Source: Pseudovibrio japonicus (GTDB lineage: Bacteria; Pseudomonadota; Alphaproteobacteria; Rhizobiales; Stappiaceae). From it: 64,000 nt of DNA. The DNA is taken from NCBI RefSeq assembly GCF_014651595.1, contig NZ_BMXE01000002.1, positions 310,001 to 374,000 on the forward strand. Direction: 5' to 3'. The notes under the pieces are model-generated. The model saw nothing but the letters and a program-made list of their open reading frames with translations. It was not told the origin of the DNA and searched no databases. Within the stretch, counting starts at the first letter, position 1; the number at the start of each line of letters is the position of its first letter. Both the position numbers and the translations under genes were made by a program. This document shows, piece after piece, positions 893 through 13,254 of this stretch.

Positions 893-2002
893 TCACACCT
901 CCCGGCTTTCGAAATCGATCCGCGGATCAATCCAAGTGTAGGTGAGATCTGAGATCAGGTTCACAATAAGACCTATCAGCGAAAAGATATAAAGCGTGGC
1001 AAACATGACCGCATAGTCGCGATTGAGGGCCGATTCAAAGCCCAAGAGACCAAGGCCATCCAACGAGAAGATTGTCTCGATGAGGAGAGAGCCCGCGAAG
1101 AATGCCGAGATAAAGGCGCCAGGGAAGCCAGCGACCACGATGAGCATGGCATTGCGGAACACGTGGCCGTAGAGCACCTGACGTTCTGTCAGCCCCTTGG
1201 CGCGGGCGGTCTGCACATATTGCTTCCTGATTTCATCAAGGAAGGAGTTCTTCGTCAAAAGCGTCGTCGTCGCAAATGCAGAAAGAGCCATTGCGGTCAG
1301 TGGCAGAACCAGGTGCCAGAAGTAGTCGAGAATACGATGCGGCCATGACATGTCGACCCAGTTTTCCGAGGTCAGCCCTCGCAGTGGGAAGAAATCCCAG
1401 AAGGAGCCGCCAGCAAACAGGACGATTAGCAGGATCGCGAACAAGAACCCGGGGATGGCATAGCCCACGATGATGACGCTGGATGTCCAGACATCAAAAG
1501 ACGTCCCGTCTTTGACTGCCTTTCGGATTCCAAGAGGTATTGATATGCCATAGGAAATGAGCGTCATCCAAAGCCCAAGCGAGATGGAAACCGGCAATTT
1601 TTCGATGATTAGATCAACAACGGCAATGTCCCGGAAATAGCTCTCACCAAAATCAAAGGTGGCGTAACTCAAAATCATCCGGCCAAAGCGTTCCAGTGGT
1701 GGCTTATCAAAACCAAACTGCGCTTCCAGCTCCTGAATGAATTCCGGGTCCAGACCCTGCGCGCCTCGATATTTCGATCCTGCGCCCTCTCCGCTGCCCT
1801 GATTGGCGCCAGCTGAGCCACCGAAATCACCTCCACCACCGGAAATCCGGCTGGTGGCTGACACACTATCCCCTTGCAACTGAGCAATCACTTGCTCAAC
1901 CGGTCCACCGGGCGCAAACTGGATAATGACAAAGTTAATCGCCATGATGCCGATCAGTGTCGGGATCATCAAAAGCAATCTACGCAGAATATAGGCGCCC
2001 AT
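893..2002 (-). CDS. yejB: YejB-like ABC transporter permease
   Basis: First permease subunit of the Yej importer, 369 aa. The N-terminus ([20 protein letters not shown]) is the standard first TM of DppB/YejB proteins. The EAA loop that contacts the ATPase is visible as [22 protein letters not shown], around residues 265-287, and the protein ends in the usual [13 protein letters not shown]-type tail. An insert rich in Gly, Ser and Ala sits at about residues 52-77 in the first periplasmic loop. YejB proteins are known to be longer than DppB in this loop, but the low-complexity make-up is notable. It follows the binding protein by 42 bp and is directly followed by yejE, so the four genes look like one transcription unit. 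Confidence 0.93.
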
Positions 2003-2044
2003 GGGCTTCTTTTGTCCCTAATTTATACGCCGATGCAAACGGCT

Positions 2045-3913
2045 TTACTTGCCGATGCGAGCGGCTTTTTCCGTATCGACCCACCACGTTGTCTCTACGG
2101 GGAAATCATAGGCTGGCATATCCGTTGGAATGCCAAACATGTCCCAGAGAGCAACTGTATGGGACGCTTTGAACCATTGTGGTACCCAATAGTAACCAGC
2201 ACGCAGAACTCTATCCAATGCCCTGGCAGCGGTTACCATTTCCTGACGCGACGATGCATTAATCGCCTTTTCAACCAGATCATCGACAGCAGGCAGTCTT
2301 ATGCCTGAGAGATTGTAAGAACCGAAGGTTTCTGCAGCCTCAGATGTCCAGAGGTTTTGGATGGTTGACCCGAGTGTCGGTGTCAACGAGAAACGATGCC
2401 CGACAATGTCGAAATCGAAGTCATTTACACGTTTTTGGAACTGCGCTGGATCAACCACTCGGAAGCTCGCTTCAATACCTAACAGACTGAGATTCTTGAC
2501 GTATGGCAGCACGATTCGTTCAAAAGTGGGCGAACTGGAGAGAAATTCCATCACCAATTGGTTTCCATCGGGGCCGATCAATTGCTCGCCTCGCCGGAAG
2601 TAGCCTGCCTCTCTAAGAAGAAGTGAAGCTTCTCTAAGAAGCGTGCGGTCCTGCCCGGATCCGTTGGAGACTGGCTGTGTGATTGCCTCGCCAAAGACCG
2701 CTTCTGGTAAATCATCCCTATAAGGCGCCAGCAAAGCCAGTTCAGCGTCACTGGGTAGGCCGACCGCTTTCATCTCTGAATTTTCGAAGTAGGATTGCGT
2801 TCTTATGTATTGATCATAAAAGAGCGCAGCATTCGACCACTCAAAATCAAATGCATAGCCGAGCGCCTCGCGAACCCTTGGGTCGGAGAACTTGTCACGG
2901 CGTGTGTTCAGGAACCAGCCCTGCGCTCCAGATGGCAGGCCGATTGCAAATTCTCTTTTGATAACACGTCCTTCTGTAAAGGCCGGGAAATTGTATTCCG
3001 TTGCCCATGTCTTGGAGGAGAACTCCTCATGGAAAGTGAGCGTCCCCTTCTTAAAGGCTTCAAAGGTTGCCTGACGTTCGCGGAAGAAGTCGAAACGAAT
3101 GATCTCGAAATTGTAGTGCCCTTTGTTTACCGGCAAGTCGTTTGCCCAGTAATCCTCGACTTTTCTGTATTCGATATACCGCCCGATCTCGTAACGCCCC
3201 ACTGTGTACGGGCCGGAGGACAGTGGTGGTGTCAGCGTCGACGCCTCGAAGTTGTAGCGGGTGTAGTAGTCCTTCGAGAAAATGGGGAGAGTTGCTATCA
3301 ATAAGGGAAGTTGCCTGCTGTGATTACCGGAAAAGGCGACTGTCACAGTGTGCTCATCCGGCGCCGTTGCAGAAACCATCTCCTGAATCGACTGGCTAAT
3401 ATACGGATGACCTTTTTCCTTCAGGGTGTTCAGGCTGAAGGCAACGTCCTCTGCATTGAGGATTGAGCCGTCGTGGAAGCGGGCTTCAGGACGGATTTTG
3501 AAGGTTACAAAGTTGCCATCGTCAGAGACCAGCGCGCTTTCGGCAACCAGCCCGTAGACCGCATCCGGCTCATCGAAGGCGCGGACCATCAGGCTATCAA
3601 AGCAACGCTCCATACGTGGTGGAGCGTCCCCTTTGAGGATGAAGCTGTTGAATGTATTGAAGGTTTGAGGGTTCTGATTATAGGTCCAACTCGGTGCGGT
3701 CATGTTGATCTGACCACCTACCGGCGCTTCCGGATTGACATAGTCAAAGGCCGTGAAGCCCTTTGGATACTTCAGATCACCGAACACGGAGAGGCCATGG
3801 CTCCAAGTTCCGGCCTGAACCGGCAAGGCGCCCCCAGGGATGAGGAACGCTGCCGCTGTCGCCGCGCTGAAGTGTAGGAAGCTACGTCTATCGAGTTGGT
3901 TTCGCACTATCAC
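2045..3913 (-). CDS. Extracellular solute-binding protein (family 5, YejA-like), Tat-type signal
   Basis: Periplasmic substrate-binding protein, 622 aa, of the SBP family 5 (DppA/OppA/YejA) type. The N-terminus contains DRRSFLHF followed by an Ala-rich hydrophobic stretch, which is a twin-arginine (Tat) signal pattern. The mature part shows YejA-like features such as GLSVFGDLKYPKGFTAFDYV near the start and RPEARFHDGSILNAEDVAFS around residues 135-155. The GTG start overlaps the stop of the upstream binding-protein gene (GTGA), with GGAGG 4 nt ahead. It is clearly paralogous to the upstream gene. Likely ligands are peptides or peptide-nucleotide compounds; the true substrate cannot be read from sequence. 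Confidence 0.9.
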   Translation of the reverse strand: MIVRNQLDRRSFLHFSAATAAAFLIPGGALPVQAGTWSHGLSVFGDLKYPKGFTAFDYVNPEAPVGGQINMTAPSWTYNQNPQTFNTFNSFILKGDAPPRMERCFDSLMVRAFDEPDAVYGLVAESALVSDDGNFVTFKIRPEARFHDGSILNAEDVAFSLNTLKEKGHPYISQSIQEMVSATAPDEHTVTVAFSGNHSRQLPLLIATLPIFSKDYYTRYNFEASTLTPPLSSGPYTVGRYEIGRYIEYRKVEDYWANDLPVNKGHYNFEIIRFDFFRERQATFEAFKKGTLTFHEEFSSKTWATEYNFPAFTEGRVIKREFAIGLPSGAQGWFLNTRRDKFSDPRVREALGYAFDFEWSNAALFYDQYIRTQSYFENSEMKAVGLPSDAELALLAPYRDDLPEAVFGEAITQPVSNGSGQDRTLLREASLLLREAGYFRRGEQLIGPDGNQLVMEFLSSSPTFERIVLPYVKNLSLLGIEASFRVVDPAQFQKRVNDFDFDIVGHRFSLTPTLGSTIQNLWTSEAAETFGSYNLSGIRLPAVDDLVEKAINASSRQEMVTAARALDRVLRAGYYWVPQWFKASHTVALWDMFGIPTDMPAYDFPVETTWWVDTEKAARIGK

Positions 3914-8178: not shown

Positions 8179-9189
8179 ATGTCTGAATTCAAGTTTGATG
8201 CATTGTGCATCGGCAATGCAGTCACTGACGTCTTCTCTCATGTGGAAGATAGCTTTCTCGTTGAGCAGTCTCTGGTTAAGGGATCCATGCGCCTCATTGA
8301 TACTGATGAAGCGCTGCGGCTTTACGATAAAATGGGCCAAACAACCCGTATTTCGGGCGGCAGTGCTGGAAATACGGCTGCCGGCATTGCGTCCTTAGGC
8401 GGAAAACCATCCTATTTTGGCAAAGTGGCCGACGACGAGATTGGCGACGTTTATCGCCATGACATGAATAGCATCGGCGTTCACTTTAATACTGGCCCAT
8501 TGCGCGATGACCTGCCTTCCAGCCGGTCTATGATCCTGATCACGCCCGATGGCGAGCGGACCATGAACACCTATCTTGGTTCTGCAACCAAGTTGACGGC
8601 GTTTGATATCGACCGCGATGTGGTTGCCAGTTCTGAAATCACCTACATGGAAGGCTATCTATGGGACGAGGAAGCTGCGAAAGATGCCTTCCTCAAAGCC
8701 TCCAAGATTGCCCATGAAGCCGGCAAGCTGGTTTCCCTTTCTCTTTCAGACAGCTTCTGCGTTGATCGCTTCAGAGATGAATTCCTGCAACTGATCCAAG
8801 AAGACAAGGTCGACATCCTGTTTGCGAATGAGCATGAGCTCAAGGCGCTCTACCAGACCTCCGATATTGAAACAGCAATTGCGCTGGTTCGCGAAGATTG
8901 CACTCTCACAGCCCTGACATTGGGCTCTGAAGGCGCGATGGCGATCTCTCGTGAGGAAACCGTGCACGTGCCTGCAACAGCGATTGTCGGCGGTGTGCGT
9001 GACCTGACCGGGGCTGGTGATCTGTTCGCCTCCGGCTTCCTGTTTGGTCTGGCTCGCGACTTCAGCCTGAGCGACTGCGCCGAGCTGGGGTGTCTGTGTG
9101 CGGGTGAAGTGATCAGCCACGTGGGTGCACGTCCCGAAAAACCTCTCAGCCAGATCGCAGAACAGAGTGGCTTCACGCTTAGAGCCTAA
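8179..9189 (+). CDS. PfkB-family carbohydrate kinase (adenosine kinase-like)
   Basis: 336-aa ribokinase-fold kinase. The N-terminal glycine-rich substrate region reads SGGSAGNTAAGIASLGG (about residues 59-76). The C-terminal PfkB signature DLTGAGDLFASGFLFGL places the catalytic Asp at 281 within GAGD (278-281). Alphaproteobacterial proteins of this type are usually annotated as adenosine kinase, which phosphorylates adenosine to AMP, but sugar specificity cannot be excluded. ATG 8179 has AAGGA about 7 nt upstream. The gene is closed by a strong terminator directly after the stop. Confidence 0.87.
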   Translation: MSEFKFDALCIGNAVTDVFSHVEDSFLVEQSLVKGSMRLIDTDEALRLYDKMGQTTRISGGSAGNTAAGIASLGGKPSYFGKVADDEIGDVYRHDMNSIGVHFNTGPLRDDLPSSRSMILITPDGERTMNTYLGSATKLTAFDIDRDVVASSEITYMEGYLWDEEAAKDAFLKASKIAHEAGKLVSLSLSDSFCVDRFRDEFLQLIQEDKVDILFANEHELKALYQTSDIETAIALVREDCTLTALTLGSEGAMAISREETVHVPATAIVGGVRDLTGAGDLFASGFLFGLARDFSLSDCAELGCLCAGEVISHVGARPEKPLSQIAEQSGFTLRA

Positions 9190-9209
9190 CAACTGGCACT
9201 GATGAATTA

Positions 9210-9233
9210 GGCGGCTCACGGGCCGCCTTTTTT
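9210..9233 (+). terminator. Rho-independent terminator after the PfkB kinase gene
   Basis: GGCGGC and GCCGCC form a stem around a six-base loop, followed by TTTTTT on the plus strand. The T-run touches the stop codon of the convergent mutase-like gene. Confidence 0.9.
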
Positions 9234-9840
9234 ATGTGCCGATCTCTTCGATACTGCCTGCGCTAGTCACCTGAAAGAAGAGCGGCTGTGCTGTAGCAAT
9301 ATGTAGGCTCTCTGTCTCGTCTTGCCCGAGGTTGCAGATTCTCGCGATCAGTCCTCGGATTGTATTCCGGTGCGAGGCGATGAGGATATTCTTTCCGCTC
9401 GTCAACTGAGGCAGGACACGGTGTTTGAAAACACTGTGTGCTCTGTTTGCGGTCATCTCCAAGCTTTCACCGCCGGGTGGAACAGCCTGCAATGAGTTGC
9501 GCCATTGATGCACCTGCGCCTCACCATGTTTGTGACATGCCTCTTCGATCGAGGTACCAGTGAGCTTGCCGTAGGCTCGTTCATTGAGCTGATCATCTTT
9601 AATCACATGCAGGTGAGGCTGATTGGTTTCCTGAAGGATCAAGTCCAGCGTCTTACGGGCGCGCTTGAGGGTTGATGAGTAGGCCATATCGAACTGAATT
9701 GCCTGCGAGCCGAGGGTACGGCCCGCGTTTCTGGCTTCCTCAACGCCCTTGGGCGTCAACTCTGGATCGCCCTGCCCTGAGAAAATCCTGCGCGCATTCC
9801 ATTCACTTTGTCCGTGACGCACCAACACCAACATTCCCAT
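9232..9840 (-). CDS. Histidine phosphatase superfamily protein, divergent phosphoglycerate mutase paralogue
   Basis: 202-aa relative of cofactor-dependent phosphoglycerate mutase. The catalytic [10 protein letters not shown] motif is at residues 6-15, followed by FSGQGDPELTPKGVEEA and the ERAYGKLTG region (ERxYG is the family signature). The second histidine motif reads ASHRNTIRG, where true GpmA proteins have AHGNSLR, so the Gly after the catalytic His is Arg. A second, more typical GpmA lies 1.9 kb away (11712-12335). This copy may be a mutase, a broad phosphatase, or a paralogue with a new substrate. It sits 91 bp downstream of the PNPOx-fold gene and could share its transcript. Confidence 0.85.
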   Translation of the reverse strand: MGMLVLVRHGQSEWNARRIFSGQGDPELTPKGVEEARNAGRTLGSQAIQFDMAYSSTLKRARKTLDLILQETNQPHLHVIKDDQLNERAYGKLTGTSIEEACHKHGEAQVHQWRNSLQAVPPGGESLEMTANRAHSVFKHRVLPQLTSGKNILIASHRNTIRGLIARICNLGQDETESLHIATAQPLFFQVTSAGSIEEIGT

Positions 9841-9931
9841 AAGACACGCCCCACAGATTCTCCAATATGGGTGCCTTATATAGCTTCCTGCACAGCTCTA
9901 AACCCGACTTTTGTTGAAATGCTCAGAGATT

Positions 9932-10483
9932 TCAGCTGGGCTCGAGAATCTTGGTGGGCAGACCGTCCAGACTGGTGACGTTGTATTTCCGCCAGTAATT
10001 CTCCAGTTCCTCGCGATCCATTGTCTCGTAGTAAGGCAGGAACTCCTTCTCAACACGGGTATCGACCAACTCCATGTGCGGGACTGTTGAGCCGCATGAG
10101 GTCTGGATCAGTTCGATGTCCAGATCGAAGATTTGCCTGCACCCCGGTAACTCCGGGAACTGAGCAACCAGATTGTTCCACTCCGGGTCCCTTGGGTGGA
10201 CCACCTTTGCAGTTCCAAACACCCGCAGCGTGAGGCGCTGCTCGCCGAACGAACAAAACATGAGAGTCATTCGGCCATCTTCCTGCACATGGGTGGCCGT
10301 TTCATTGCCAATGCCGGTCAGGTTCAACCAAATGACCCGCTCATCACTCAGGACCCTCAGCGTATCCATACCCTTGGGAGACAGGTTGATATGTCCAGTG
10401 GCAGCAGCGGTCGCCACGAAGAATACTGATTGTTCTTCGATATGCTGGCGAAATCTGCGGTTCAGTTTCTTCGCTTTTATCAT
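9932..10483 (-). CDS. Pyridoxamine 5'-phosphate oxidase (PNPOx)-fold family protein
   Basis: 183-aa protein with the split-barrel flavin-binding pattern: FFVATAAATGHINLSPKGMDTLRVLSDERV near the N-terminus, then LNLTGIGNETATHVQEDGRMTLMFCSF. Proteins of this group bind FMN, F420 or haem and act in general redox or detoxification roles; true PdxH is longer and different, so vitamin B6 synthesis is not implied. The ATG at 10483 follows the stop of the unknown 242-aa gene by 27 bp, with GAGAG just upstream, so the two are likely co-transcribed. Confidence 0.82.
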   Translation of the reverse strand: MIKAKKLNRRFRQHIEEQSVFFVATAAATGHINLSPKGMDTLRVLSDERVIWLNLTGIGNETATHVQEDGRMTLMFCSFGEQRLTLRVFGTAKVVHPRDPEWNNLVAQFPELPGCRQIFDLDIELIQTSCGSTVPHMELVDTRVEKEFLPYYETMDREELENYWRKYNVTSLDGLPTKILEPS

Positions 10484-10510
10484 CTGCTCTCAGGACCGTT
10501 TCAAGGACGC

Positions 10511-11239
10511 TTAATCAGCATCAGCATACTGGGCGTTAATGCGGCGCTGCTCGCTTGCGTAGCTGCCGGAACGGCCGCCATTGCGTTTGTCGTAGCTTCT
10601 TGCCCAAGCCTGCCAAAACTCTTCCGAGGTGGCGTCCATATCTGTGATTTCCGGCTGGACAATCGGCGTCTTCGGCAGGATCGTGTTGGGCAATTGCACA
10701 ACTTGCAGCAAAGGCCGATGGCGTGGGAAGCTGATGGGCACATCCTGCTTGCGCAGCTTCACATTGATGAAGAGCGGCGAACAGAACCAGCTGGAGTCGA
10801 TCATTGCTTCAAAGCAATCAAAGCCGGAATTGGACGGAAGGTTGATCGGACCACGAACCCAATGGCACTGGCCTTCATCACCAATCAGACTGTAGCCGGT
10901 GCCAATCTGGACGATATCGCCTTCCGGAAACACATCCAGAAACGGCGGGTAGTAGTCTTCCAATCCTTCCGGACAGAGTTTTTGGTAGTCTTCCACGAAA
11001 TCGGTAAGATACAGCCGGTCGAGCAAGGTCCACTCACCATCAGCACCTAGCTTGTAAAGGACCTCTGATCCGGTCCACATCAGGTAAAAGTCTACTGGCG
11101 GGTAAACGTAGTAGCCTTGGCGAGAAGCCGTAACAAGGGGCTCACAGTACTTCATTGCCCGAGCAGGCATCATGCCAAGATTTGTTCCATCTGCCTTCAC
11201 GACATCTGGGGCAGACTTGACCATTCTTACAAACTTCAC
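10511..11239 (-). CDS. Uncharacterised 242-aa protein (possibly DUF6065-like)
   Basis: Function unknown. The protein has no signal peptide or TM segment. It is rich in aromatic and Pro residues, with conserved-looking stretches TASRQGYYVYPPVDFYLMW (about residues 37-56), YYPPFLDVFPEGDIVQIGTG and VPISFPRHRPLLQVVQLP. From memory this resembles DUF6065 proteins, but I could not check. The open frame extends to 11302, but GTG 11239 has GAGGGAA about 6 nt upstream, and the extra region is a terminator hairpin, so GTG 11239 was chosen. Upstream lies a 35-aa ORF (11311-11418), separated by a terminator-like hairpin; downstream is a PNPOx-fold gene. The set could form one unit with a small product. 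Confidence 0.75.
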   Translation of the reverse strand: MKFVRMVKSAPDVVKADGTNLGMMPARAMKYCEPLVTASRQGYYVYPPVDFYLMWTGSEVLYKLGADGEWTLLDRLYLTDFVEDYQKLCPEGLEDYYPPFLDVFPEGDIVQIGTGYSLIGDEGQCHWVRGPINLPSNSGFDCFEAMIDSSWFCSPLFINVKLRKQDVPISFPRHRPLLQVVQLPNTILPKTPIVQPEITDMDATSEEFWQAWARSYDKRNGGRSGSYASEQRRINAQYADAD

Positions 11240-11271
11240 GGAAATTCCCTCGCAGAAAGATACTCTGCTAC

Positions 11272-11300
11272 AAAAAAAGAGAGGCAGTCTGGACTGCCTC
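11272..11300 (-). terminator. Terminator or attenuator between the 35-aa ORF and the 242-aa gene
   Basis: Minus strand: GAGGCAGT and ACTGCCTC pair perfectly (8 bp, loop of 4), followed by CTC and then seven T in a row. It starts 10 nt after the small ORF stop and ends about 33 nt before the GTG of the next gene. It should stop much of the transcript and let a fraction read through. Confidence 0.85.
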
Positions 11301-11310
11301 ACGCATTAGA

Positions 11311-11418
11311 TTATTTTGGCTTTTTCTTCTCATCTTTTGGAGCCAACCCGCCGTTCAATTTTGCTGGCTTAGCTTGTGCAGATGCTGGGCGACCGTCGTT
11401 TGCTACAGAAAACTTCAT
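11311..11418 (-). CDS. Small basic ORF, 35 aa, function unknown
   Basis: Starts MKFSVANDGRPASAQAKPAK and ends in a charged run (KDEKKKPK). The ATG at 11418 is preceded by GAGAGGACAACCT, so an AGAGG-type ribosome binding site lies 6-7 nt upstream. The reading frame is closed just before a strong terminator hairpin. The peptide is very basic (8 Lys, 1 Arg) and rich in Ala and Pro, with no Cys and no signal or TM segment. It could be a translated small protein, a leader peptide for the downstream gene, or a precursor peptide. The lack of Cys and scarcity of Ser and Thr argue against most modified-peptide classes. It is supported by its binding site and placement, not by homology. Confidence 0.5.
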   Translation of the reverse strand: MKFSVANDGRPASAQAKPAKLNGGLAPKDEKKKPK

Positions 11419-11659
11419 AGGTTGTCCTCTCAATCAGAATTAAATAGGTGCATACATTTTTTGTAAGCTTTGAGAGGCTTGCATCGAATCTGGCATAGCA
11501 CAAGGCAAATAATAATCACGCATTCATTATCTATTATTGATAATTCGCAGTGCTTTATATTTCACGGACTTAGTATTTAAATAGGGTCTATTTATGTGAA
11601 TAATATTTATGCCTTGAATTCCAACTCAGGTACTATTTAGGGGCATATCTTCGGAAAAT
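11419..11659. other. AT-rich intergenic region upstream of the 35-aa ORF
   Basis: About 240 bp of strongly AT-rich sequence (for example 11520-11640) between the small ORF and the gpmA terminator. It must hold the promoter of the small-ORF unit on the minus strand. I could not pick one -35/-10 pair with confidence, and no gene is supported. Confidence 0.5.
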
Positions 11660-11689
11660 AAAAAAGCGACCCCGAAGAGCCGCTTTTTT
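11660..11689 (-). terminator. Rho-independent terminator of gpmA
   Basis: AGCGGCTC and GGGTCGCT pair with a TTCG tetraloop and wobble pairs, flanked by A and T runs on both sides. It is on the gpmA side, 22 nt past its stop, and could work in both directions. Confidence 0.82.
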
Positions 11690-11711
11690 GATTCCGGATT
11701 GTCAGCCTGGC

Positions 11712-12335
11712 TTAAGCGTCTGCCAGATCCTCGACAGAGAGAACCTTACCTTCTTCATCAAGGCGATAAACAACAGGCTTGCCTGTGCCGAGTTCACGCT
11801 TGAGGATTTCTTCGCGTGAGAGGCCTTCCAGTTCCATGATGAGGGAACGCAGAGAGTTGCCGTGTGCAGCAACGATAACGCGATTACCTTCGAGAACTTT
11901 TGGAAGAATGTCAGAACGGTAGTAAGGCAAGGTGCGTTCTGCAGTCATCTTCAGGCTTTCACCGCCTGGGGGAGGTACGTCGAACGAACGGCGCCAGATG
12001 TGGACCTGCTCGTCACCGAACTTCTTACGTGCTTCGTCTTTGTTCATGCCCGTGATGTCGCCGTAATCACGTTCGTTCAGAGCCTGGTCCTGAGAAGTTG
12101 GCAGGTCTTCCTGACCAAGCTCACCGAGGATCAGCTTGAGTGTGTGCTGCGCACGCAGCAGGTCAGAAGTGAACGCCAGATCAAACGTCAGGTTCATTTC
12201 TTTGAGTTTTTTGCCTGCAGTTTTTGCTTCTTCAACACCCTGCTCTGTCAGATCCGGGTTTTTCCAGCCGGTGAACAGGTTTTTCAAATTCCATTCGCTT
12301 TGTCCGTGGCGGACGAGAACCAAAAGGCGTTCCAT
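11712..12335 (-). CDS. gpmA: 2,3-bisphosphoglycerate-dependent phosphoglycerate mutase
   Basis: 207-aa glycolytic enzyme interconverting 3- and 2-phosphoglycerate. The catalytic motif [10 protein letters not shown] is at residues 7-16, [13 protein letters not shown] follows, ERDYGDITG carries the conserved Glu and Tyr, and the second His is in [11 protein letters not shown]. The length matches the short alphaproteobacterial GpmA type (about 206 aa). A TTG directly precedes the ATG, but AGGAGAG lies 5 nt before ATG 12335, so that start is used. It is downstream of dapB by 103 bp, with an 11-bp inverted repeat in the gap. The dapB-gpmA pair is conserved in Rhizobiales. Confidence 0.94.
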
Positions 12336-12363
12336 CAAACTCTCCTAGGGAGGCTATGTGTTC

Positions 12364-12396
12364 TTGAAAGCAGTTGTCTTGGAAGACTGCTTTCAA
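12364..12396. repeat. 11-bp perfect inverted repeat between dapB and gpmA
   Basis: TTGAAAGCAGT (12364-12374) and ACTGCTTTCAA (12386-12396) are exact inverse copies around an 11-nt loop. There is no T-run, so it may be a weak terminator, an mRNA stability element or an operator. Confidence 0.75.
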
Positions 12397-12438
12397 AGTC
12401 ATTCCGCATATCTCGCAATATCGAGTATGCGCTACGTA

Positions 12439-13254
12439 TCACTCGTCATTTAGGCCGAGAACATCGGCCATTGAGTATAAGCCCGGCTGCTGCTTATGCG
12501 CCCAGATGGCGGCCTTCACCGCACCGCGAGCAAAAATCTGTCGGTCTGTTGCTATGTGTGAGAGTTCTATACGCTCTCCTTCGCCTGCAAACATCACCGT
12601 ATGTTCACCTACCACTGAGCCGCCGCGCAGTGTTGCGAACCCGATATCGCTTCTTTTGCGCTCTCCAGTGATACCGTCACGGGAGCGAACACTATGAGGT
12701 TCCAAAGGAATTTCGCGACCCTCAGCTGCTGCCTCGCCAAGCAAAAGTGCTGTGCCTGATGGTGCATCAACTTTGTGTTTGTGGTGCATTTCCAGAACTT
12801 CAATGTCGAAATCCTCATCAAGCGCAGCTGCAGCCTTTTTGACGAGACCAGCCAGCAGGTTAACACCCAAGCTCATATTGCCGGATTTTACAATGCGGGC
12901 GGATGTCGCGGAGTGAGCCAGCTCAGTGGATTGCGCGGAGGTCATACCGGTTGTGCCGATGATGTGCACGATGGAATGGCGTGCGGCTGCCTCTGCGAAT
13001 AGGACGGTTGCTTCCGGCCTCGTGAAATCCAGAACTCCGTCAGCTTCTGCGAAAGCTGCGTTGAGATCGGACATGATTTCAACGCCGAGTTTGCCACATT
13101 CGGCCAGCTCGCCAGCATCCTTGCCGAGAAACTCGGAGTTTTCGCGTTCAATCGCTGCGGATACCACCACACCGTCCATCTCGGTTACGGTGCGAACCAA
13201 AGTGCGGCCCATTCGGCCTGCTGCGCCGACAACAACCAGTCGCATGTCGCTCAT
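12439..13254 (-). CDS. dapB: 4-hydroxy-tetrahydrodipicolinate reductase
   Basis: 271-aa enzyme of lysine and meso-diaminopimelate synthesis, reducing hydroxy-tetrahydrodipicolinate with NAD(P)H. The nucleotide-binding GAAGRMGR is at residues 10-17, FTRPEA and GTTGM are in the middle, and the catalytic [14 protein letters not shown] is at about 155-168. The open frame runs to 13401, but ATG 13254 ([16 protein letters not shown]) matches the family and has a GGGGGAA site close upstream. The length is normal for DapB (about 270 aa). Confidence 0.95.

Follow-up and report, generated by a model that had tools for sequence, protein, structure and literature searches.

Layout of the unit

The window, the whole stretch of 64,000 nucleotides analyzed here (locus L001), derives from the genome of Pseudovibrio japonicus (G000; 4.96 Mb in 24 contigs). 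On its minus strand, we find in this order a dyad, a 35-aa ORF, 10 nt, a hairpin, a gene for a DUF6065 protein and a gene for a PNPOx-fold protein. The dyad ATTATCTATTATTGATAAT (ATTATC-N7-GATAAT; 11526..11544, unstranded) is a candidate operator or promoter element; the peptide ORF follows ~107 nt downstream. This ORF (11311..11418, minus strand) starts with ATG, has GAGAGGA upstream as ribosome binding site and encodes the basic peptide MKFSVANDGRPASAQAKPAKLNGGLAPKDEKKKPK, a candidate one-copy precursor or ligand. A motif inside the peptide, KLNGGLAP (11338..11361, minus strand), is proposed as the counterpart of a repeat unit of relatives, based on a matrix and on tree-chosen relatives (see below). 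The terminator-like hairpin (11281..11300, minus strand; folding z −3.0) begins 10 nt past the peptide stop; its 8-bp stem, GAGGCAGT/ACTGCCTC, encloses the loop CCAG at 11300-11281, with TC and seven T after it. The DUF6065 gene (10511..11239, minus strand) has a GTG start at 11239 with GAGGGAA upstream and encodes 242 aa with a predicted dUTPase-like fold, while the third gene of the unit encodes a PNPOx-fold protein of 183 aa (PF01243; 9932..10483, minus strand). The ORF with its ribosome binding site, the 8-bp hairpin with seven T, the 242-aa gene and the PNPOx gene, which an earlier note had listed from the letters of this DNA, are all present. Phosphoglycerate-mutase-type genes lie on both sides of the unit (9232-9840 and 11712-12338); both score best on NF002339, and the one at 11712-12338 alone passes its cut-off. 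Rfam families have no match within the window, and no tRNA or tmRNA genes were found in it.

The 35-aa ORF is a gene under selection

Two lines of evidence support the 35-aa ORF as a gene. First, an intact copy was found in 8 of the 16 genomes of the genus (E ≤ 4.3e-14), which are the identical eight genomes that carry DUF6065; the other eight are without a match, and the best match outside the genus has an E of 0.16. Second, 10 of the 11 codons that differ between L001 and L002 are synonymous (pS 0.43, pN 0.025), as are 9 of the 15 that differ between L001 and the most distant locus, L008 (pS 0.42, pN 0.098). Because it is intact in the DUF6065 carriers and changes mostly synonymously, the ORF is more than a chance reading frame, and we conclude that it is a real gene with coding under selection. 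The search for homologous loci that lack the ORF or have stops in it, which the earlier note had proposed, turned up none in the eight carrier genomes, and 6 of 81 loci in a wider set of relatives are without a candidate peptide. Among the eight noncarrier genomes of the genus, inspected beside gpmA, G009 keeps a decayed remnant (L197) downstream of this gene, in which the peptide end, the hairpin and pieces of DUF6065 are left; therefore, the unit has been lost at least once.

The peptide contains two Ser but neither Cys nor Thr, in agreement with the earlier description of no Cys and few Ser or Thr. It has no family match in Pfam or NCBIfam, and the view that no standard modified peptide is indicated stands.

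The hairpin and the upstream dyad

The hairpin forms in all five loci that were folded out of the eight carriers (z −2.4 to −3.8), including L008, in which it forms though the stem sequence differs; in the three remaining carrier loci, the stem is visible by sequence. The run of seven T is found in the window only. Because the other carrier loci have five T or fewer, the term "strong terminator" applies to the window locus alone. A pattern scan of 9100-12500 gave seven terminator-like sites, of which the peptide hairpin is one, versus 3.6 in shuffles. Among the wider relatives, we folded the peptide-DUF6065 gaps of 51 loci against 100 shuffles (12 loci were excluded by hand, and two gaps were <25 nt); z was below −2 in 16 of the 51, i.e., about a third, and the median was −0.9. 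Where they occur, hairpins after the peptide could keep it in excess over DUF6065. The precursor-peptide layout that the earlier note had suggested is supported by the multicopy motif peptides found at the same place in most of the relatives examined (see below), and by stable hairpins at this place in a minority of them.

All eight carriers have the dyad ATTATCAATAATAGATAAT without a single difference, and it lies inside a 20-base block that is identical across the aligned loci. ATTATC-N7-GATAAT has its sole exact match in G000 here and is found upstream of the peptide in all eight carriers. The pattern is present in 9 of the 16 genus genomes, of which G003 has it elsewhere only; six carriers have additional copies elsewhere, one each in five of them and two in G005. 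We know of no regulator that fits the 20-base block.

A small ORF 5' of a terminator-like hairpin and downstream of a conserved dyad might also be a regulatory leader, the translation of which controls read-through past the hairpin, and a leader-controlled layout had indeed been suggested. However, conservation is on residues rather than codons, and repeat arrays occupy the corresponding place in relatives. Leader attenuation is unsupported for these reasons, and we regard it as quite improbable.

The DUF6065 protein has a predicted dUTPase-like fold

The 242-aa protein, previously listed as unknown, has a family: it matches PF19541 (DUF6065) at 40 bits versus a curated cut-off of 26.6 (E 4.2e-10). 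DUF6065 is a family without an assigned function in Pfam. The match lies above the cut-off, yet it is partial, with the best stretch covering positions 86-200 of the 236 of the profile, unlike the matches to the entire model at 306-330 bits in six other genomes of the same search. No family was found for the protein in NCBIfam, PHROG or PADLOC; the subfamily members of L020, L051 and L079 match phrog_7084 (function unknown). The closest named relatives are from Pseudovibrio, at 87-94% identity.

An AF2 model of the window protein from a 50-row alignment has a pLDDT of 90.1 and a pTM of 0.84. Foldseek listed 50 PDB matches for it, all with titles naming a dUTPase or a dUTPase-Stl complex, 12 of them at E ≤ 0.001, and structural comparison gave Z 11.5 with 3ecy_A (rmsd 3.6 over 116) and Z 11.4 with 1six (rmsd 2.5 Å over 114). 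A second model, led by the protein of the array-bearing locus L060, has a pLDDT of 90.8, 92 matches at E ≤ 0.001, and Z 12.1 with 3ecy_A (rmsd 2.9 over 119). Based on these models, the DUF6065 subfamily is predicted to have the jelly-roll fold of trimeric dUTPases (PF00692). The fold is not visible from sequence: hhalign of the sequence profile versus dUTPase gave a probability of 0.1% and E 0.5, and a sequence search of solved structures returned two insignificant VirB11 matches only. The window genome carries a separate PF00692 dut gene.

The dUTPase motifs could be compared through the nonsignificant hhalign alignment only. There, the RSG of motif II is aligned to PIN, Pro176 (P in 50/50 rows) stands opposite the Arg of motif IV, and the Asp of motif III falls on a position occupied by Glu in 44/50 rows; Gln179 is the only motif residue retained in this alignment, and motif I falls outside it. 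An additional segment at the N-terminus of DUF6065, relative to trimeric dUTPases, contains an invariant Cys. Cys32, Gln179, Trp209, Gly225 and Arg232 are invariant in 50/50 rows; Arg129, Asn133, Glu144 and Asn159 are conserved in 49/50. The protein ends in a conserved C-terminal tail, GxYAxxxR(K/R). Trimeric dUTPases have five motifs, of which the mobile C-terminal motif V closes the site (excerpt of PMC12524310); by analogy, the GxYAxxxR(K/R) tail may play a motif V-like role.

Repeat arrays lie upstream of DUF6065 in relatives

A scan of genome contigs for relatives gave 165 pattern matches, of which 149 were confirmed and 80 kept; together with one locus from IMG/VR (L110, from 12 pattern matches there), these make up the 81 loci studied. 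L110 lies on a contig filed as viral and has a unit ORF and DUF6065. ORFs upstream of DUF6065 subfamily genes carry units such as DAGKVRLGGFAPTL, DSGTVRLGNMSPAFKV and KDSKKVKLGGGLAPAAL (among the matches listed), and a typical upstream ORF has 1 to 19 DAGKVRLGGxAPxL-like units. A profile made from 46 units of 24 loci, out of 28 loci set aside for building, matches the same-strand ORF directly upstream of DUF6065 in 60 of the 81 loci and in 33 of the 53 outside the building set, and has no other match in the 557,612 bases of the 81 loci. Unlike the subfamily of the window protein, the other DUF6065 genes are without a unit array by this profile, which matched none of their 33 loci (L010-L015, L019, L029 and L116-L140; 111,954 bases), L014 and L135 among these being one gene.

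The 21 loci missed by the profile comprise five from Pseudovibrio plus R. hamelinense, with short one-copy peptides; two with <70 bases upstream; seven in which a related short ORF was seen by eye (L038, L063, L067, L084, L087, L091 and L095); and the six without a candidate peptide (L041, L058, L075, L077, L080 and L104). In L038, L084 and L095, a short peptide carries one variant unit like DAGRVRFGAGVGIIxRR at its C-terminus.

Counted by a strict pattern, complete ORFs have from 0 or 1 up to 14 copies and ORFs truncated by a contig end up to 19, and the commonest spacing is 17 residues (131/223). Among 263 units from the 52 loci that were left after 14 others had been removed by hand (spurious pattern match, N in the array, or Pseudovibrio), D is conserved at 91%, K at 80% and P at 91%; only the frequencies at such remaining positions are free, because the pattern itself fixes G at +3 and restricts the neighboring residues. 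Units within one array differ by synonymous codons in the six arrays displayed.

Beyond the 81 loci, arrays were found, among the matches listed, in L112-L115 and in L150-L152 (four units of the SMGGGVAP type); the array of L020 (G118) has twelve 20-residue units. A Rhizobium plasmid carries an ORF that is annotated as a hypothetical protein and has three VHIANKSP units; DUF6065 and an overlapping MFS gene come next. Among 11 further subfamily loci, the profile matched five (L020 and L112-L115) and missed L016, L018, L150-L152 and L212. In L017, a frame change interrupts the DUF6065 gene of G072, and the 46-aa peptide upstream is intact; a similar peptide occurs in G092 (L018). A long SSN-repeat ORF in L019 (G115; 758-1306), which converges with a nearby phrog_7084-type DUF6065 gene, is probably unrelated. 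Four repeat ORFs, one of them the shortened L108 array, gave weak family matches, the best RiPP-like one being to a J25 lasso model (20.8 bits, under the model's cut-off of 23). The L020 array exceeds the cut-offs of LpxI_N, PG_1098_N, DUF123 and DciA, which we take for summed repeat noise.

The array and the DUF6065 subfamily occur together

At an E of 1e-60 or better, a cut chosen by inspection, the DUF6065 subfamily is present in 5 of 385 class genomes (the window genome, G191, G317, G335 and G414); in the other 33 of the 38 genomes with a match, DUF6065 matches are weaker and partial, and there is no repeat. The class-level repeat profile, which included rows from G317 and G414, also matches 5 of the 385, i.e., G191, G317, G335 and G414, at the neighboring place in each, and G220, in which the neighbor is not readable because the array sits at a contig end; it has no match in the window genome. 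For the association of array and DUF6065 across the 384 other genomes, Fisher's test gives 5.6e-9, and with G317 and G414 left out, 2/2 versus 1/380 (~4e-5). Altogether, the pairing of the peptide with the DUF6065 subfamily, and their order, are well supported.

A small gene next to a larger one, a patchy distribution (14 of 87 family genomes), the decayed copy in G009 and the plasmid copies in Rhizobium are also what a toxin-antitoxin or similar two-gene addiction pair could look like. However, arrays of up to 19 copies would be unexpected for an antitoxin, six proteins have no match among the PADLOC defense families (toxin-antitoxin families were covered through Pfam and NCBIfam), and exporter-type genes are present at some loci; we consider an addiction pair highly improbable. 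As to mobile elements, the L051 protein is found in four plasmid records, while plasmid DNA has no match to window 10400-11700 and no match to phage proteins was found.

The window peptide as a probable member of the repeat family

Whether the one-copy peptide of the window belongs to the repeat family was examined with matrices, alignments and a tree. The matrix of the main repeat type does not recognize it (10115/20000 shuffles score as well). With the matrix of a nine-residue-core type, a type selected after the likeness had been noticed, 113/20000 shuffles reach its score; among the window ORFs of 25-80 aa, 2/323, the peptide included, do so. The same matrix misses the peptides of R. hamelinense (19150/20000) and L018 (7172/20000). 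The likeness lies in the motif, KLNGGLAP in the window versus KLGGGLAP in L079 and GGGLAP in L150.

The DUF6065 tree provides a choice of relatives made on the partner protein: it places Pseudovibrio and R. hamelinense with L020, L018, L087, L067, L150 and L152, versus 46 rows (96/90). With the peptides so chosen (L150, L067, L087, L020 and L018), the best local score to the window peptide is reached by 26/5000 shuffles and the summed score by 42/5000, although the L020 and L018 peptides singly align weakly (scores 18 and 17). No shuffle of 5000 is as good as the alignment with the R. hamelinense peptide. Because these tree-chosen relatives and the R. hamelinense peptide align, and with the main-type matrix to the contrary, membership in the repeat family, as a one-copy and diverged relative, is the most likely status of the window peptide but not a certain one.

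The alternative is that the peptide gene has no relation to the arrays and merely adjoins the DUF6065 gene in Pseudovibrio, so that the array pairing of other lineages does not apply to it, as would fit the miss by the main-type matrix and the lack of a match to the class-level profile in its own genome. This we hold to be very improbable: R. hamelinense has an alignable peptide in the identical place and order, and several members of the nearest tree group have GGG-x-AP repeats (among the matches listed).

The PNPOx gene and other neighbors

The PNPOx gene is present in the same 8 of the 16 genus genomes at ≥82% identity, and a ninth, G011, has a homologue at 48%. We considered PNPOx as a general component and rejected it; outside Pseudovibrio, a gene of this type was seen near DUF6065 in L017 only and is barely alike (pair E 0.009). 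The PNPOx gene, which had been counted to the unit, was found in it in Pseudovibrio only and is a lineage-specific addition.

MFS-type genes follow DUF6065 in L020, L067, L150-L152 and L212, and an EamA gene does so in L063. The MFS-type proteins of L067, L150-L152 and L020 are mutually homologous at 26-30%, that of L212 is unrelated to them, and two of the calls are below the Pfam cut-off of 33.4 bits (L067, 19.3; L150, 31.0). Among the 29 of the 81 loci with a close same-strand downstream gene, three have a transporter-like gene there, judged by eye from the first residues (L062, L063 and L067); exporters are thus found in a minority of the 81. Neither a constant protease or transporter nor a clear leader/core split was seen among the 81 loci. 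Other candidates for constant neighbors (clusters of ORFs ≥110 aa in the 81 loci) were rejected as, by eye, antisense frames or synteny of close relatives. In L016, a 348-aa protein (1992-3038) follows the R. hamelinense DUF6065; it is also found in L035 and has no Pfam match at E 0.01.

Discussion

Here, we identify a pair of adjoining genes, encoding a short peptide and a protein of the DUF6065 subfamily, in which the peptide of most relatives is an array of a repeated unit. The explanation that we favor, and to which we give an even chance of being right, is that the unit is a minimal RiPP-like system, composed of a precursor peptide and a DUF6065 partner that binds and most likely modifies the repeat unit; the peptide is probably a substrate or ligand of DUF6065. 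In this scheme, the precursor peptide would be transcribed first, and the hairpin after it would limit read-through into the DUF6065 gene, leaving the peptide in excess. DUF6065, with its predicted dUTPase fold, would bind units of the form (K/R)-hydrophobic-(G/N)-G-x-A-P and most likely modify them chemically. In most relatives, a precursor has several copies of the unit, and one transcript would therefore supply many substrate sites; in some lineages, the exporter gene directly next may serve export of the matured product. In Pseudovibrio, a one-copy, diverged precursor would have been joined by a PNPOx-type flavoprotein. We suggest a precursor with a modifying partner because the peptide-first order, the conserved unit, the expansion in copy number and the downstream exporter-type genes fit it. 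Counting against it, the unit is nearly invariant, neither a clear leader/core split nor a constant protease or transporter was seen, exporter-type genes are infrequent, six of the 81 loci are without a candidate peptide, and the main-type matrix misses the window peptide.

A more specific form of this proposal is that DUF6065 is a dUTPase fold that has evolved into a peptide-modifying enzyme, using Cys32 and the C-terminal tail to act on tandem (K/R)-x-G-G-x-A-P units with an exported product, in Alphaproteobacteria and some other phyla. We put this forward tentatively, as somewhat doubtful. To our knowledge, no dUTPase-fold protein is known as a peptide-modifying enzyme.

The main rival to a modifying partner is a nonenzymatic, probably trimeric DUF6065 receptor that has lost the dUTPase chemistry and binds a linear motif, such that the arrays would be multivalent ligands or scaffolds, or the peptide would control DUF6065, in a way somewhat similar to the mutual control of Stl and phage dUTPases. 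The predicted fold is that of trimeric dUTPases, motifs II and IV are not kept in the single weak alignment, and binding would be expected to keep a motif nearly invariant. Moreover, phage dUTPases exert their effect by binding the Stl repressor (excerpts of PMC5593958 and PMC12524310), a precedent for a dUTPase-fold protein able to act by binding another protein, from which the present case differs in that the partner is an adjoining short repeat peptide and not a repressor. By contrast, the invariant Cys32 and the conserved GxYAxxxR(K/R) tail resemble an active-site set, and the exporter-type genes of some lineages suggest a product. We regard a receptor as unlikely, though to be taken seriously.

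Short gene-encoded peptides with repeated units and an adjoining partner gene are reminiscent of multicore RiPP precursors such as those of the multivalent graspetides, e.g., plesiocin (excerpt of PMC13003496). The present system differs from these in that no recognized RiPP enzyme lies beside DUF6065, the unit is nearly invariant, and the system is known from genes alone. With the definition of RiPPs taken from the same excerpt, there is an encoded precursor-like peptide beside a partner gene, and no known tailoring enzyme or recognized precursor family was found for the window peptide and the four repeat ORFs. In the open-licence PMC literature, we found no paper on DUF6065, PF19541 or the repeat motif, none linking a dUTPase-like protein to a RiPP or precursor peptide, and no description of the peptide-DUF6065 gene pair, which appears to be undescribed.

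Altogether, these findings give the Pfam family DUF6065 a partner that recurs beside it, together with a predicted fold and substrates that can be tested; the natural arrays offer from 1 to about 19 sites each. If DUF6065 only binds the unit, the pair would represent a multivalent peptide-receptor system. Should DUF6065 modify the unit, a fold of nucleotide enzymes would have been turned to peptide chemistry, and the family would represent a kind of RiPP enzyme that mining with known enzyme profiles would miss.
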